Assembly: GCF_002284575.1 (NCBI RefSeq)
Contig: NZ_NPKJ01000076.1
Location: 137,432-201,431, forward strand
Direction of reading: 5' to 3'
DNA from: Mesorhizobium temperatum
GTDB taxonomy: Bacteria; Pseudomonadota; Alphaproteobacteria; Rhizobiales; Rhizobiaceae
DNA length: 64,000 bases
Shown here piece after piece: positions 21,932 through 53,352 of this stretch. Under the pieces are notes generated by a model. The model was not told where the DNA came from and ran no database searches. It saw only the letters and a list, made by a program, of their open reading frames with translations. The translations under genes and the position numbers were made by a program. Positions within the stretch are counted from its first letter, which is position 1. Every line of letters starts with the position of its first letter.

Positions 21932-22085
21932 TCTTCCTTCTCCCCTTGTGGGAGAAGGTGGATCGGCGCGTAGCGCCGAGACGGTTGAGGGGTGTTGGAC
22001 GGAGTGCCGGCGGTGCCAAGCTGGAACACCCCTCATCCGACCTCGCTTCGCGAAGCCACCTTCTCCCACAAGGGGAGAAGGAAGA
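21932..22085. repeat. palindromic repeat, CCTTCTCCC family, copy 1
   Basis: Each end is a hairpin of CCTTCTCCC with GGGAGAAGG, and the two ends are inverted relative to each other. The middle carries GGCGCGTAGCGCC and the GGTGTTGGACGGAGTGCC stretch typical of this rhizobial element. Closely similar copies occur at 43531-43683 (complete, opposite orientation) and 50617-50856 (damaged). Confidence 0.88.
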
Positions 22086-41433: not shown

Positions 41434-41693
41434 CAACTTCTCACTGGCTGCCGCATTTGCGCATCTTGCTGGCTTATCAGCTGCATAGCGCATCAATTCG
41501 CGACGTGAAACCGGCGCTGACGTGACAATGCCGATTTCGTCAAAAAGTCGCGCATCATACTACAAAATCGCGGTTTGCGGTCCACCAGAACATCGATCCC
41601 GGCCAAGGCATTCCAAGACGCCACTCCAAGGAGAGCCGTCGCCCTGACGTTTTTAATTGTTCGACGGCTTGCTTATCGGCCATACTTCGCGCC

Positions 41694-42338
41694 ATGCGCA
41701 CTCCTGGGCCATCCGGCTTTTCATCGACGCGCTTTTTTTCGTCGCCCGGACGGATTTGCCGGGCGCTCGTTTTGGCCCTTTTGCCGCTGGCGTCCGTTGG
41801 CGCCCACGCCGAGCCGCAAAGGGTCTGGGCGGCCGGAGCCTACTCCTTTTCCGACGAGTTGGGCGGCTTCCGCATCACCAGCGCCTCGGGCATCGGGACA
41901 AAGGAGGACCCGCTTGTCATTACCGAAGAGCTGAACTCGGCGACACCGGTGACATTGACGATCCGCACGACTAAGCCGATCCAGCCCTTCGGCACTGCGG
42001 GCCAATTTGCCAATGGCCTCATGTATATGCGCGTCGACGTGCTCAACAACAGCGGCCAGGCCTGGGTCGAGTTCCAGTTCGAGCTCCAGGAGGTGCTCCA
42101 CAGGCCGAGCGTATTCGGCGACGGCCTGTCATTCGACCAGCGCAACAAGACGCCTGACAACATCTGGTCGAGCAGCTTTTCCGATTTCGATCGCGACTTC
42201 GAGCCCTATGACCGGCTGCTGTTCAAAAGCGGCAAGATCGACCCGCTGAAGACGGCAAAGTTCAATTACCTGATCACCGACTACACGCCTCGCTGGACGT
42301 TCTATCTGGTGCAGGATCCGCGTATACCGTCGAGCTGA
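41694..42338 (+). CDS. exported protein of unknown function
   Basis: The 214-residue protein has a long N-terminal signal (RICRALVLALLPLASVGAHA, cleavage before EPQR). A mature domain follows with strand-rich text: YSFSDELGGFRITSASGIGTKEDPLVITEELNSATPVTLTIR, then FFEL-like stretches and DYTPRWTFYLVQDPRIPSS at the end. No cysteines or catalytic motifs stand out; it looks like a beta-sandwich periplasmic protein. I recall similar unnamed proteins in other rhizobia but no function. A repeat follows within 5 bases of the stop. Confidence 0.8.
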   Translation: MRTPGPSGFSSTRFFSSPGRICRALVLALLPLASVGAHAEPQRVWAAGAYSFSDELGGFRITSASGIGTKEDPLVITEELNSATPVTLTIRTTKPIQPFGTAGQFANGLMYMRVDVLNNSGQAWVEFQFELQEVLHRPSVFGDGLSFDQRNKTPDNIWSSSFSDFDRDFEPYDRLLFKSGKIDPLKTAKFNYLITDYTPRWTFYLVQDPRIPSS

Positions 42339-47964: not shown

Positions 47965-50610
47965 ATGCGCACGGACACCGGCCAGGTCTTCAAGCTCGAA
48001 GACTATCGCCCCACCGACTATCTCATTCCGGAAACCGGCCTGACTTTCCGCCTGTCACCAGCAGCCACGCGTGTCATCGCCGTACTGACGGTCGAACGCC
48101 GCGACGGCATAGCGGCGTCAGTGCCGCTGGTGCTGGACGGCGATGGGCTGACGCTCAGCCGCATCGCAATCGACGGCCAGACACTCGCGCCGGCCGATTT
48201 TTTTGCCACGCCCGATCAGCTGACGATCACCACGCCGCCCGCAGCACCCCGCTTCCAGCTCCTGATCGAAACCGAGTTGGCGCCGGCGCACAACGAAGCC
48301 CTGATGGGTCTCTATCGCTCCAGCAACGTCTATTGCACGCAATGCGAGGCCGAGGGCTTTCGGCGCATCACCTATTTTCTCGATCGCCCCGATATCCTGT
48401 CCGTCTATACGGTGCGCGTCGAGGCGCGGCACCACGAGGCGCCACTGCTTCTTTCCAACGGCAACCCGGCGGGCAGCGGCGAACTTGCCGACGGCTGGCA
48501 CTATGCGGTCTGGCACGACCCCTTCCCCAAGCCGTCCTATCTGTTCGCCCTGGTGGCGGGCGCTCTCGGCAAGGTCGCTGACAGCTTCGTCACATTGTCC
48601 GGCCGCAAGGTCGAACTCGGCATCTATGTCGAGCCGGGCAAGGAGCGGCTCGCCGGCTACGCCATGGACGCCCTGAAACGGTCGATGAAATGGGACGAGG
48701 AGGCGTTCGGCCGCGAATACGACCTCGACGTCTTCAACATCGTCGCCGTGTCCGACTTCAACATGGGCGCGATGGAGAACAAGGGCCTCAACATCTTCAA
48801 CGACAAATATGTGCTGGCCGATCAGGAGACCGCAACGGACGCCGATTTCGCCAATATCGAGGCGATCATCGCGCATGAGTATTTCCACAATTGGACTGGC
48901 AACAGAATCACTTGCCGCGACTGGTTCCAGCTTTGCCTGAAGGAAGGGCTGACGGTTTTCCGCGATCACGAATTCTCCGCCGACCAACGCTCGCGAGCGG
49001 TGAAACGCATTGCCGAAGTGCGCACGCTGCGGGCGCATCAGTTTCCCGAAGACCAGGGACCGCTGGCGCATCCGGTGCGGCCGCGCCGCTACCGCGAGAT
49101 CAACAATTTCTACACGGCGACAGTCTACGAAAAGGGCTCGGAAGTGGTGCGCATGATCCGCACCATTCTCGGCAGCGAGACGTTCCGGGCCGGCATGGAT
49201 CTCTATTTCGAGCGCCACGACGGCGAGGCTGCGACGATCGAGGACTTCATCAAGGTGTTCGAGGATGTGTCCGGCCGCGACCTCTCGCAATTTTCGCTCT
49301 GGTACCATCAGGCGGGCACGCCCAATCTGACGATCAGTTCGACGCACAATCCGGCAGCCCAGGAATTCACGCTCGAGATCGAGCAGTCGGTACCGCCAAC
49401 GCCGTCCGAAAGCCGCAAGCGGCTGATGCATATTCCGCTGGCCTTCAGCCTGGTCGGCACCGACGGCAAAGCGATAGCCTATAGCGGCGTCGAGGGCGCC
49501 AGCGTCGAGGACGGCGTCATCCATATCCGCAAGCGCCGGCACATGGTGCGCTTCACGGGCGTCGCCGAGCGCCCAGCGATGTCGCTCAATCGCGGCTTCT
49601 CGGCGCCGGTGACGCTTTCCGTCGAACAGAAGGCCGACGATCAGTTCTTCCTTGCCGGCCATGACAACGATACCTTCTCGCGCTGGCAGGCGTTCAACAC
49701 GCTTTTGACCGACGCGCTGATATCAGCCTTCCGCCAGGTCCTTGACGGCAGGCAGCCCGGTTTCGCATCACGGTTGACCGGGCTTGCCGGCAAAATAGCC
49801 GACGACGAGACACTCGAACCGGCCTATCGGGCGCTGGCTCTGGCGCTTCCGAGCGAAGCCGATATCGCCCGTGACATCGGCAAGAACATCGACCCCGATG
49901 CCATTTTCTCGGCCCGCGAGGCGCTGACGGCCGCGATCGCCGAGGCGAACCGCGAGATATTCTCCGACCTCTACGATCGACTGGCCAACAACGACGCTTT
50001 CAGTCCGGATGCGGCGAGCGCCGGGCGCCGGGCGCTGCGCAACACCTTGCTCGACTATCTCTCGCTGCTGCCGGGAGGTGCGGCGCTTGCGGCCCGGCAT
50101 TTCCAGTCCGCGACCAACATGACGGACCGTGCCGCCGCACTGACCGTGCTTGCGCTCCGCCACCGCGGTTCGCCCGAGACGGTCAAGGCACTGGCCGACT
50201 TCGAAGCGAAATATGCGACCGACCCGCTGGTGATGGACAAATGGTTCCAGATCCAGGCCAGCGTGCCGGGCCCGCAAACCATTTTTGCGGTGCGCGCCCT
50301 CACCGGCCACCCGGCCTTCTCGATGGCCAATCCGAACCGGGTGCGCTCGCTCGTCGGCACGTTTTCCAGCGCCAACCAGACCGGCTTCCATCGCGCCGAC
50401 GGCGAAGGCTACCGGTTTTTCGTCGAAACGGTCCTGCAGGTCGAAAAGCGCAACCCGCAGCTGGCCGCCAGACTGGCGACGGCACTCAGATCATGGCGCT
50501 CGCTCGAACCTGCCCGGCAGGCCAAGGCAAGGGAAGCGCTGCTTTCGATTGCCAAAACCGAGAACCTGTCGGCCGATTTGCGGGACATCGTCGAGCGGAC
50601 GCTGGCGTAG
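47965..50610 (+). CDS. pepN: aminopeptidase N (M1 family)
   Basis: The 881-residue protein has the M1 substrate motif GAMENKGLNIFN and the zinc motif HEYFHNWTGNRITCRDWFQLCLKEGLTVF (HExxH-x18-E) near residue 300. The C-terminal helical domain is DUF3458-type, as in gamma/alphaproteobacterial PepN. It removes N-terminal residues from peptides in the cytoplasm and completes protein turnover. An AGGAA site precedes the ATG. It is divergent from the CoxL-like gene. The stop is followed within 10 bases by a damaged palindromic repeat. Confidence 0.96.
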   Translation: MRTDTGQVFKLEDYRPTDYLIPETGLTFRLSPAATRVIAVLTVERRDGIAASVPLVLDGDGLTLSRIAIDGQTLAPADFFATPDQLTITTPPAAPRFQLLIETELAPAHNEALMGLYRSSNVYCTQCEAEGFRRITYFLDRPDILSVYTVRVEARHHEAPLLLSNGNPAGSGELADGWHYAVWHDPFPKPSYLFALVAGALGKVADSFVTLSGRKVELGIYVEPGKERLAGYAMDALKRSMKWDEEAFGREYDLDVFNIVAVSDFNMGAMENKGLNIFNDKYVLADQETATDADFANIEAIIAHEYFHNWTGNRITCRDWFQLCLKEGLTVFRDHEFSADQRSRAVKRIAEVRTLRAHQFPEDQGPLAHPVRPRRYREINNFYTATVYEKGSEVVRMIRTILGSETFRAGMDLYFERHDGEAATIEDFIKVFEDVSGRDLSQFSLWYHQAGTPNLTISSTHNPAAQEFTLEIEQSVPPTPSESRKRLMHIPLAFSLVGTDGKAIAYSGVEGASVEDGVIHIRKRRHMVRFTGVAERPAMSLNRGFSAPVTLSVEQKADDQFFLAGHDNDTFSRWQAFNTLLTDALISAFRQVLDGRQPGFASRLTGLAGKIADDETLEPAYRALALALPSEADIARDIGKNIDPDAIFSAREALTAAIAEANREIFSDLYDRLANNDAFSPDAASAGRRALRNTLLDYLSLLPGGAALAARHFQSATNMTDRAAALTVLALRHRGSPETVKALADFEAKYATDPLVMDKWFQIQASVPGPQTIFAVRALTGHPAFSMANPNRVRSLVGTFSSANQTGFHRADGEGYRFFVETVLQVEKRNPQLAARLATALRSWRSLEPARQAKAREALLSIAKTENLSADLRDIVERTLA

Positions 50611-50616
50611 GCGTCC

Positions 50617-50856
50617 CTTCCTTCTCCCCTTTGTTTGGACTGGGGACATCGCGCTTCTGTCCTTGAACGGCATCCCGAACCCCTCGCGCACAATGCGCAA
50701 AACTGTTCGCGATGTCCTCGCACACCTGTTCGCGATGTCCCCAGTCCAAAACACCCTTGTGGGAGAAGGTGGATTGGCGCGTAGCGCCAAGACGGTTGAG
50801 GGGTGTTGGACGGAGTGCCGTCGTTGCCAAGCTGGAACACCCTAATCCGGCCTAGC
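50617..50856. repeat. palindromic repeat, CCTTCTCCC family, copy 3, interrupted
   Basis: The left CCTTCTCCCCTT arm is split after CCCTT by a 122-base insert and resumes at 50754 with CCCTTGTGGGAGAAGGTGG. The middle GGTGTTGGACGGAGTGCC stretch is intact, but the right CACCTTCTCCC arm is missing, so the copy is both interrupted and truncated. The rest up to 51024 is AT-rich leader of the kinase gene with no other gene. Confidence 0.85.
50632..50753. mobile_element. MITE-like element inserted in a palindromic repeat
   Basis: The 122-base insert starts TGTTTGGACTGGGGACATCG and ends CGATGTCCCCAGTCCAAAAC plus A: terminal inverted repeats of about 22 bases with one indel and TG...CA ends. CCCTT is duplicated on both sides (50627-50631 and 50754-50758). 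The uninterrupted sequence is known from copies at 21932 and 43531. Near the right end CTGTTCGCGATGTCC occurs twice (50703-50717, 50726-50740). There is no coding capacity, so it would need a transposase in trans. Confidence 0.88.
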
Positions 50857-51024
50857 GCTGCCACGCGCCATTATCGGGCAGGAAAGCCATTATTTTAGTC
50901 GATTTTTAATCTTTTTTCGCTGCGCCTATGGACAAGCCGAATCACCTTTGATTCTTTAGCTTAAGATTCGGAAGTGCGGCGTCGCCGGATCGTCAAGCAG
51001 ATTTAAAATCGGGGAGAGCCATTT

Positions 51025-53352
51025 ATGGCGAAGGCGGACGCGTGGGGCGCGCCCGGAGGGACGGGTTTTGAGCAGCGTGAGGCGAGAAGCGACGGTCTCG
51101 CCGGCAACGCGCGGCTCATCGCCGAACCCGCCTACCGACGGCTTCTGGCAGCCGAGCCATTGTTGCGCCGATCGATACCGGCCCTCATCATCATTTTCCT
51201 GGTCGTCATCGCGGCGCTGCGGTTCCTGTCGCTGATGAACGAACGTGACGACGTGGAACGCGACGCCAAGGCGATCCTTTCGCTCGCGGCGGGCCAACTG
51301 GCCAGTTCGATTAGCGTCGATGCGAACTTGGCCTCAACGCCTGGCGCGACGCAGGACCTGTTGGAGGGCATCAGCCGTCAGGGCGCGATGGGCCGAAGCC
51401 ACGTGCTTGCGGTCACCGACAGCGCGTTCAAGATCGTTGCCGTGACACCGCAATCGACGGGCTGGGAAGGGCGGTCGCTCGACGCCATCGCCCAGGGCGG
51501 TCAGCCGCTGTTCATGTTCGGCGACCGCGCCGGGGTGATGGAGGTCAGAATCGGCGGCCAGGACTGGTATGCGGCGGTGAGCCTGACAAACGGCAGGAAC
51601 GGTGCTGCCGCAGCGCTCGTTCCGCAGGAAGCGGTCTTCGACACGTGGCGCAAGACCGTTTCGCTCAACGTCACGCTGTTCGTGCTGACAGCCGGCGTGC
51701 TGATCATCATCCTCTACGCCTATTTCGGCCAGGCGGCGCGCGCCCAGGCCGCCGACCGCATTTATCTCGAAGCGCACCAGCGCATCGACATGGCGCTGGT
51801 GCGCGGCCGCTGCGGCCTGTGGGACTGGGACATGGTGCGCGGCAAGATGTACTGGTCGCGCTCGATGTACGACATGCTGGGCTATGAGCCCTGCGACACA
51901 ATGCTGTCATTCGGCGAGGTCGACGAGATCATCCATCCCGAGGACGGCGACCTGTTCCAGCTCGCCAACAGGATCGTCGCACGCGAGATCGATCACATCG
52001 ACCAGGTGTTCCGGATGCGCCATGCCGACGGACAATGGGTGTGGATGCGCGCAAGGGCGCAGGTGATCGACCCGGAAGCGCCGGAGATCCAGCTGATCGG
52101 CATCGCCGTTGACGTCACCGAGCAGCGGCACCTGGCGCTGCGCTCCGAGGCCGCGGATCTTCGCCTGCGAACGGCCATCGAAAACATCAACGAATCCTTC
52201 GTGCTCTGGGATTCCGCCCAGCGCCTGATCATGTGCAATTCCAAATACCAGCAGGACAACGGCCTGTCGGACCGCGACGTGATGCCGGGCGCCTCGCGCG
52301 CCGTTCTGGAAGATCGCATGCTTGCCTTCGCCTCGGAGCGCCGGCTTGCCAACACCAACGGGCAGCAGGGCGGCGTGACTTTCGAGCGGCAGCTTGCCGA
52401 TGGCCGCTGGCTGCAGGTGAACGAATTGCGGACCAGGGACGGCGGCACCGTTTCGGTCGGCTCGGACATCACCCAGATCAAGCTGCACCAGGAGAAGCTG
52501 GTCGACAGCGAACGCCGGCTGATGGCGACGATCCACGATCTCAGCCTTGCCCGCCGGGCTGAGGAAGAGCGGTCGCGCGAACTGGTCGAGCTCAATCACA
52601 AATACATGAAGGAAACCGAGCGCGCCGAGGCCGCGAACCGGGCCAAATCCGAGTTCCTGGCCAACATGTCGCATGAATTGCGCACGCCGCTCAACGCGAT
52701 CATCGGCTTCTCGGAGCTGATGGAACAGGCGCTGTTCGGGCCCTTGGGTTCGCCGCGCTACGAGGAATACGCTACCGACATCAACGGCAGCGGCAAATAT
52801 CTTCTGGGCGTCATCAACGACATCCTCGACATGTCGAAGATCGAGGCCGGCCAGTTCTCGATGGATCAGGAGGAAATCGACCTCTGCCCGCTGATGCGGG
52901 AAACGGTGCGCGTCATCTCGCTGCAGGCAGCGGAAAAGTCGATCACCGTCGAAACACGCATCCCCGATTCGCTGACGCTGTTCGCCGACCGCCGGGCGAT
53001 CAAGCAGATCATCATCAACCTCCTGTCGAACGCGGTGAAATTCACCGGCCAGGGCGGCCGCATCGCGGTAAGGGCCCGCAACACATCCAGCGCTCTGGTC
53101 CTGACGATCGAAGACAATGGCTGCGGCATCCCGAAGGAGGCGCTGAGCAAGCTCGGACGGCCGTTCGAACAGGTGCAGAACCAGTTTTCCAAGAGCCATG
53201 CCGGTTCCGGCCTTGGCCTTGCCATCTCACGTTCGTTGGCCGAGCTTCAGGGCGGCGCTTTGAAAATCCGCTCAACCGAAGGCACCGGCACGATCGTGTC
53301 GGTGCGCATTCCGACCAGGAAGCCGACGCAGCCGGTCAGGGCCGCCGCCTGA
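51025..53352 (+). CDS. pleC: PAS-domain sensor histidine kinase, PleC/DivJ family
   Basis: The 775-residue kinase has two transmembrane helices (about 55-72 and 215-235) around a periplasmic sensor part and PAS segments (about 255-370 and 385-490). A coiled segment is followed by the HisKA box NMSHELRTPLNAIIGFSELMEQALFGPLGSPRYEEYATDI and the HATPase with NLLSNAVKF, DNGCGIP, GSGLGLAIS. The extended H-box with FGPLG-RYEEYA is the signature of PleC/DivJ/PdhS kinases that act on DivK in cell-cycle polarity. Its position next to glnE fits rhizobial pleC as I recall it. GGAGAG precedes the ATG. The pleC name is likely, not proven. Confidence 0.85.
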   Translation: MAKADAWGAPGGTGFEQREARSDGLAGNARLIAEPAYRRLLAAEPLLRRSIPALIIIFLVVIAALRFLSLMNERDDVERDAKAILSLAAGQLASSISVDANLASTPGATQDLLEGISRQGAMGRSHVLAVTDSAFKIVAVTPQSTGWEGRSLDAIAQGGQPLFMFGDRAGVMEVRIGGQDWYAAVSLTNGRNGAAAALVPQEAVFDTWRKTVSLNVTLFVLTAGVLIIILYAYFGQAARAQAADRIYLEAHQRIDMALVRGRCGLWDWDMVRGKMYWSRSMYDMLGYEPCDTMLSFGEVDEIIHPEDGDLFQLANRIVAREIDHIDQVFRMRHADGQWVWMRARAQVIDPEAPEIQLIGIAVDVTEQRHLALRSEAADLRLRTAIENINESFVLWDSAQRLIMCNSKYQQDNGLSDRDVMPGASRAVLEDRMLAFASERRLANTNGQQGGVTFERQLADGRWLQVNELRTRDGGTVSVGSDITQIKLHQEKLVDSERRLMATIHDLSLARRAEEERSRELVELNHKYMKETERAEAANRAKSEFLANMSHELRTPLNAIIGFSELMEQALFGPLGSPRYEEYATDINGSGKYLLGVINDILDMSKIEAGQFSMDQEEIDLCPLMRETVRVISLQAAEKSITVETRIPDSLTLFADRRAIKQIIINLLSNAVKFTGQGGRIAVRARNTSSALVLTIEDNGCGIPKEALSKLGRPFEQVQNQFSKSHAGSGLGLAISRSLAELQGGALKIRSTEGTGTIVSVRIPTRKPTQPVRAAA

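Follow-up and report, generated by a model that had tools for sequence, protein, structure and literature searches.

A 122-bp IS481-family derivative in a hairpin repeat of Mesorhizobium, and the question of whether it moved or shrank in place

How does a sequence of 122 bp come to lie within an intergenic palindromic repeat of Mesorhizobium temperatum, and did it arrive as a small mobile element or was it left behind by a larger one? The sequence occupies positions 50632-50753 of the window, by which is meant the whole stretch of 64,000 nucleotides that was analysed (C69:137432-201431 of a 7.17-Mb genome in 77 contigs). It has TG...CA ends and is bracketed by direct repeats of CCCTT (50627-50631 and 50754-50758), and the host hairpin lies on either side of it, with CCTTCTCCCCTTGTGGGAGAAGG (50620-50631) on the left and the remaining part (50759-50769) on the right. 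The left terminal repeat (50632-50653, plus strand) and the right terminal repeat (50732-50753, minus strand) are each of 22 bp and match over 22 bases save for one extra T in the right-hand copy. A search of the window with 20 bases of the terminal repeat produced matches confined to the two ends of the insert, with 0 and 2 mismatches, and none in 100 shuffles. An inner 15-bp repeat, CTGTTCGCGATGTCC, occurs twice (50703-50717 and 50726-50740, both on the minus strand). The insert begins 21 bp beyond the end of pepN, encoding aminopeptidase N (47965-50610, plus strand; TIGR02414, 1192.7 bits against a cut-off of 718.2), and is followed by a gene for a sensor histidine kinase (51025-53352, plus strand), which 47 models match, none of the best 25 of the 47 scoring above a curated cut-off. 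The first-pass annotation, made from the letters alone, had reported a 122-base insert in a palindrome with terminal inverted repeats of about 22 bases, TG/CA ends and a CCCTT duplication, all of which are present, and had called it MITE-like; a short sequence with terminal inverted repeats and a target duplication and without a transposase gene does have the structure of a MITE or non-autonomous IS derivative.

A search of 146 genomes of the genus with an 801-base region spanning the insert gave 29 loci outside the window's genome, and both strands of each were tried in the alignment. The close relative G037 (L111), which is 94.8% identical to the window over 50400-51000, has an exact empty site with a single CCCTT, the alignment gap of 127 being the sum of the 122 bases of insert and 5 of duplication. 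The insertion point, which the annotation had held to be certain from uninterrupted hairpins near 21932 and 43531 (these too are present as claimed), is thus confirmed by direct comparison, as are the two copies of CCCTT. The 122-mer was found in none of the 29 aligned loci, the alignments of L112, L117 and L126 ending short of the site. The uninterrupted hairpin is also visible in L130, L134 and L138, in a looser alignment, and several other loci diverge more deeply at this point. In genome G077, which is not represented among the 29 loci, this intergenic repeat is occupied by a complete IS of the family to which the insert belongs; the duplication there is a different one, AAGGT, so that two independent insertions seem to have taken place at the locus. 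This locus (L076 345-1614 in G077 and window 50632-50753) and that of L058 and L082 have each, it seems, received separate insertions, in two genomes, of different family members.

A full-length IS with the same ends, for which the annotation had recommended a search, is present in the window's own genome, so that the insert also shares its ends with an autonomous element of the same genome, as MITEs do. It is 1270 bp long (C44:292114-293383; L006:2115-3384), has the ends TGTTTGG...CCAAACA, its first 22 bases being identical to those of the insert, and is flanked on both sides by AAGGG. Its inverted repeats are perfect over 53 bp and each contains the 15-bp sequence GGACATCGCGAACAG twice, with a spacing of 23. 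It lies in the same kind of hairpin as the 122-mer and at the same place in it, in the opposite orientation. The annotation had expected a transposase of IS3 or IS481 type, and of these the second stood and the first did not: the protein P0001, a transposase of DDE type (375 aa as translated, with no stop in the frame), scored 256.1 bits against the NCBIfam IS481 model NF033577.2 (cut-off 224), and only 101 bits against an IS3 model, below the cut-off of 160. It also matches Pfam rve and HTH domains. Members of the IS481 family have 5'-TGT...ACA ends and a short target duplication; this IS has both, and 30 of the 31 duplications of at least 5 bp found in the family are of exactly 5 bp, with 13 of 44 copies having none that long. 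A DNA-level search with the full IS found matches at E<=1e-40 in four of 394 genomes of the bacterial family, all in the window's genus; two candidates were scored per genome and copy numbers are therefore lower bounds. Among plasmids, the full IS was found on one of Mesorhizobium and partial matches on two others, but the 122-mer on none. The window's genome also contains decayed remains of more distantly related IS copies, at G000:C15:7972-8281 and C15:11030-11134.

The relationship between the two sequences is a simple one. Bases 1-22 of the insert are bases 1-22 of the IS, and bases 16-122 (about 107 bases) align with the right end of the IS with identity at 105 of 108 aligned positions. 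The two segments overlap at the 7-bp sequence CATCGCG (50647-50653, plus strand), and 1148 bp of the IS are absent at this junction. CATCGCG occurs in the IS at bases 16, 39, 893 and 1164, the ends of the deletion being the copy at 16, inside the left inverted repeat, and that at 1164, which adjoins the start of the transposase. From this correspondence the insert is very probably a non-autonomous, internally deleted derivative of the resident IS481-family element, lying in the preferred hairpin target of that element. It is envisaged that the transposase would recognise a hairpin and cut it with a 5-bp stagger, and that the middle of an IS may be lost through slippage between the CATCGCG repeats with the aid of the long inverted repeats; the inner 15-bp repeat, which the full IS carries in two copies at either end, fits a putative transposase site. 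The proposed loss resembles the nearly precise excision of Tn10-type elements, in which deletion occurs between short direct repeats in the presence of long inverted repeats and leaves a short palindromic remnant. That process, mentioned in a passage of PMC12524634, is an experimental system of E. coli, whereas the one envisaged here is deduced from sequence comparison. The length of the repeat alone does not explain the junction, because the pair at 39 and 1164 is equally long and would yield a derivative of 145 bp, and no such derivative was seen among the short copies ("minis") examined, nor any that had used either of two 8-bp repeats that also lie more than 800 bp apart in the IS.

An important consideration is the kind of site into which these elements insert. 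Searches with the IS ends gave matches in 45 of the 146 genomes (at most six matches were scored per genome, so that copy numbers are lower bounds), and 60 stretches, then 20 more, were examined along with the stretches from the genome of the window. From the matches 44 two-ended copies were chosen by hand, those with a missing or degenerate end or flank being set aside. A duplication of at least 5 bp flanks 31 of the 44 (30 of 5 bp, one of 6 bp), from 14 genomes; the remaining 13 are without one and their targets are therefore less certain, and the statistics were restricted to the 31 because stems may be artefacts where a duplication is lacking. Among the 31 no pair represents one insertion in two genomes, as judged by comparison of flanks, two pairs that share flanks differing in their duplications. 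With a background drawn from one window and insertions from 14 genomes, a perfect stem of 8 bp or more is present in the reconstructed target of 24 of the 31 as against 0.77% of 12,776 window positions (binomial p 5e-45), and the motif CTCCC-N2..9-GGGAG is present in 26 of the 31 as against 0.29% of window positions (binomial p 2e-61). The motif accompanies 20 of 24 ISs and six of seven minis; the five insertions without it are L066 and L073, which have no half motif, and L086, L089 and L101, which have half. For copies with a single readable flank (excluding L019, L060, L062, L063, L068, L097, L260 and L278), CTCCC or GGGAG was found within 25 bp in 27 of 31, the background being 2.3%. Five genomes contain between 174 and 241 CTCCC...GGGAG hairpins each, compared to 19-31 for the reversed pattern, and one type of hairpin occurs at 101 sites (<=3 mismatches) in the window's genome. 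In the three commonest hairpin types the duplication falls at the boundary between arm and loop, and it is this boundary of CTCCC...GGGAG hairpins that the IS family strongly prefers.

The host hairpins themselves occur as inverted pairs 123 bp apart within composite mosaic repeats, as at 21940/22063 and 43537/43660 in the window. A number of the copies without a duplication (L050/L053, L055, L059, L061, L095 and L106) look as if they were flanked by the left portion of one hairpin on one side and by the right portion of the inverted partner hairpin on the other. Hybrid flanks of this kind would be produced by recombination between two insertions, or by an adjacent deletion extending into the partner hairpin.

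Minis are not confined to the window. A count of copies in relatives, as the annotation had advised, gave at least 15 with the standard junction in 11 of the 146 genomes, and as two pairs have common flanks these represent 13 distinct sites. A search of the 146 genomes with the junction (<=2 mismatches) gave a match in 76, and the ten exact matches were all known minis; by this search, most of the mismatched matches lying outside the count, no genome has more than two known standard minis. There are other junctions, a 98-bp form in G037 (L067) with a relic in G107 and a 75-bp form in G037 (L066), and L057 is a truncated mini. The 75-bp element (L066 984-1058) consists almost wholly of the two IS ends and has a CAGAT duplication outside any hairpin. 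A loose scan of a collection of species genomes with an 18-base junction pattern found at least 119 stretches, among which L179, L203 and L225 match most of the element, the rest of those listed giving short matches or none. The annotation had named beforehand two outcomes that would tell against it, namely an absence both of further copies and of an IS with matching ends, or the same sequence in all related strains with no empty site; neither occurred, since other copies, an IS with matching ends and an empty site all exist.

A tree was constructed from the common right end (98 columns and 55 rows, 15 minis against 40 others, with L060, L061, L067 and L068 included). The minis are spread over several IS groups, falling with L006 and L090, with the ISs of G136 and G108, with L092 and L093, and with L095, and forcing all 15 into one clade lowers the log-likelihood by 49.8 units (AU p 1.1e-10), although among inner branches only 1 of 31 is starred for support and the starred branches force only three label changes. 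Scattering of this kind could also have been produced if minis and ISs had undergone gene conversion with one another. In most minis the left and right ends covary in their outer bases. Just three minis group with an IS resident in the same genome, the window element with L006, L055 with four ISs of G136, to which it is identical over the compared right end, and L059 with L095. L020, the second mini of the window's genome, lies outside the IS group of that genome, and L259 (G135) is placed without support.

Was the middle of the IS lost before insertion, the mini being moved in trans, or after it, the full IS shrinking in place? The two possibilities are about even: low copy number per genome and the grouping with more than one IS lineage speak for shrinkage in place, and the one common junction for a mobile form. 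Shrinkage in place, by which each mini would be the scar of an inserted full IS that had lost its middle between the CATCGCG repeats, is given very nearly an even chance. It is consistent with the distribution of minis among IS lineages, with the three genomes in which a mini groups with the resident IS and with the low copy number, and the 98-bp (L067) and 75-bp (L066) forms demonstrate that other types of deletion are also found at duplication-flanked sites. However, no locus was found at which one strain had the complete IS and another a mini flanked by an identical duplication, the duplications differing both between the window and L076 and between L058 and L082. The use of one junction at all 13 sites when an equal repeat exists is also awkward for it, as are L020, which stands apart from its genome's IS, and L259, which groups firmly with nothing.

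The same uniformity speaks for a true mobile MITE family, in which IS481 transposases would have mobilised in trans one or a few ancestral 122-mers that spread through strains of Mesorhizobium, a history to which slightly under an even chance is assigned. One junction serves 15 minis at 13 sites in 11 genomes despite the equal repeat at IS base 39, several minis have perfect duplications, and G144 has a pair of similar minis, of which the second is truncated. In many genomes, moreover, the mini is without a close resident IS: no match to the transposase at E<=1e-60 was obtained in six of them (G037, G090, G124, G144, G048 and G013), all but G037 being many-contig drafts. Against such a family are the rejection of a single mini clade and the ceiling of two known standard copies in any of the 146 genomes, whereas full ISs form sets identical over the compared right end in G077, G135, G100 and G136.

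Since the 15 minis with one junction fall among different IS lineages and not in one clade, the same deletion has possibly recurred. It is tentatively suggested, at rather less than an even chance, that a 7-bp repeat built into the element, one copy in the terminal repeat and the other at the transposase start, has led it to collapse repeatedly and independently to the same form of about 122 bp in several Mesorhizobium lineages, the minis being recurrent by-products of each IS lineage and not an inherited MITE family. That the insert is no mobile derivative at all, and is instead an ordinary variant of the palindromic repeat or a terminator of intergenic origin, is extremely improbable, for although its strand folds strongly (-60.9 kcal/mol, z -9.2) this origin is refuted by the exact empty site with one CCCTT and by the parent IS, to both ends of which the insert is identical.

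Palindrome-seeking ISs, an IS481 element in REPs, the insertion of IS711 in the Bru-RS repeats of Brucella, a genus of the same bacterial order as Mesorhizobium, and MITEs derived from ISs are all already in print. The closest parallel is the IS481-family element of Pseudomonas fluorescens SBW25 that inserts in REP sequences and, like the present one, has copies at the same position of palindromic intergenic repeats; it differs in its putative 4-bp duplications and in the family of repeats, and the passages on it mention no short derivatives (PMC11708052). ISRm22 and ISRm19 of Sinorhizobium meliloti, ISPsy8 and IS1397 likewise land in extragenic palindromes, but the REP-targeting ISs there described belong to families IS3, IS110, IS4, IS256 and IS5, a term search of the article finding neither IS481 nor Mesorhizobium; imperfect direct repeats at some ISRm22 copies are attributed in the same article to recombination between copies (PMC1525189). 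A preference for the palindromic intergenic Bru-RS has been reported for IS711, which is a different IS and duplicates TA at YTAR (PMC2266754, PMC3163539). MITECca01 of Cardinium, described as derived from ISCca4, resembles the 122-mer in being short, in lacking a transposase and in sharing its inverted repeats with a resident IS, but its parent is of the IS982 family, it is about 240 bp long and it has many copies, whereas no genome here has more than two known standard ones (PMC9769881). Neither an IS481-derived MITE in rhizobia nor a recurrent collapse at one junction was found in the open-licence literature searched, and it is the possibly repeated collapse that is the part without a precedent found in print. 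The Mesorhizobium element joins those IS481 and other elements known to seek palindromic intergenic repeats, and it offers, within one genus, a natural series of parent ISs, empty sites and same-junction derivatives that are open to comparison, so that the origin of bacterial MITEs, and whether they move or merely persist, becomes testable. An Rfam search gave no match at the element; elsewhere in the window it identified MH_s10 (RF02879) at 41674-41813 on the minus strand, with 119.7 bits against a gathering score of 81.
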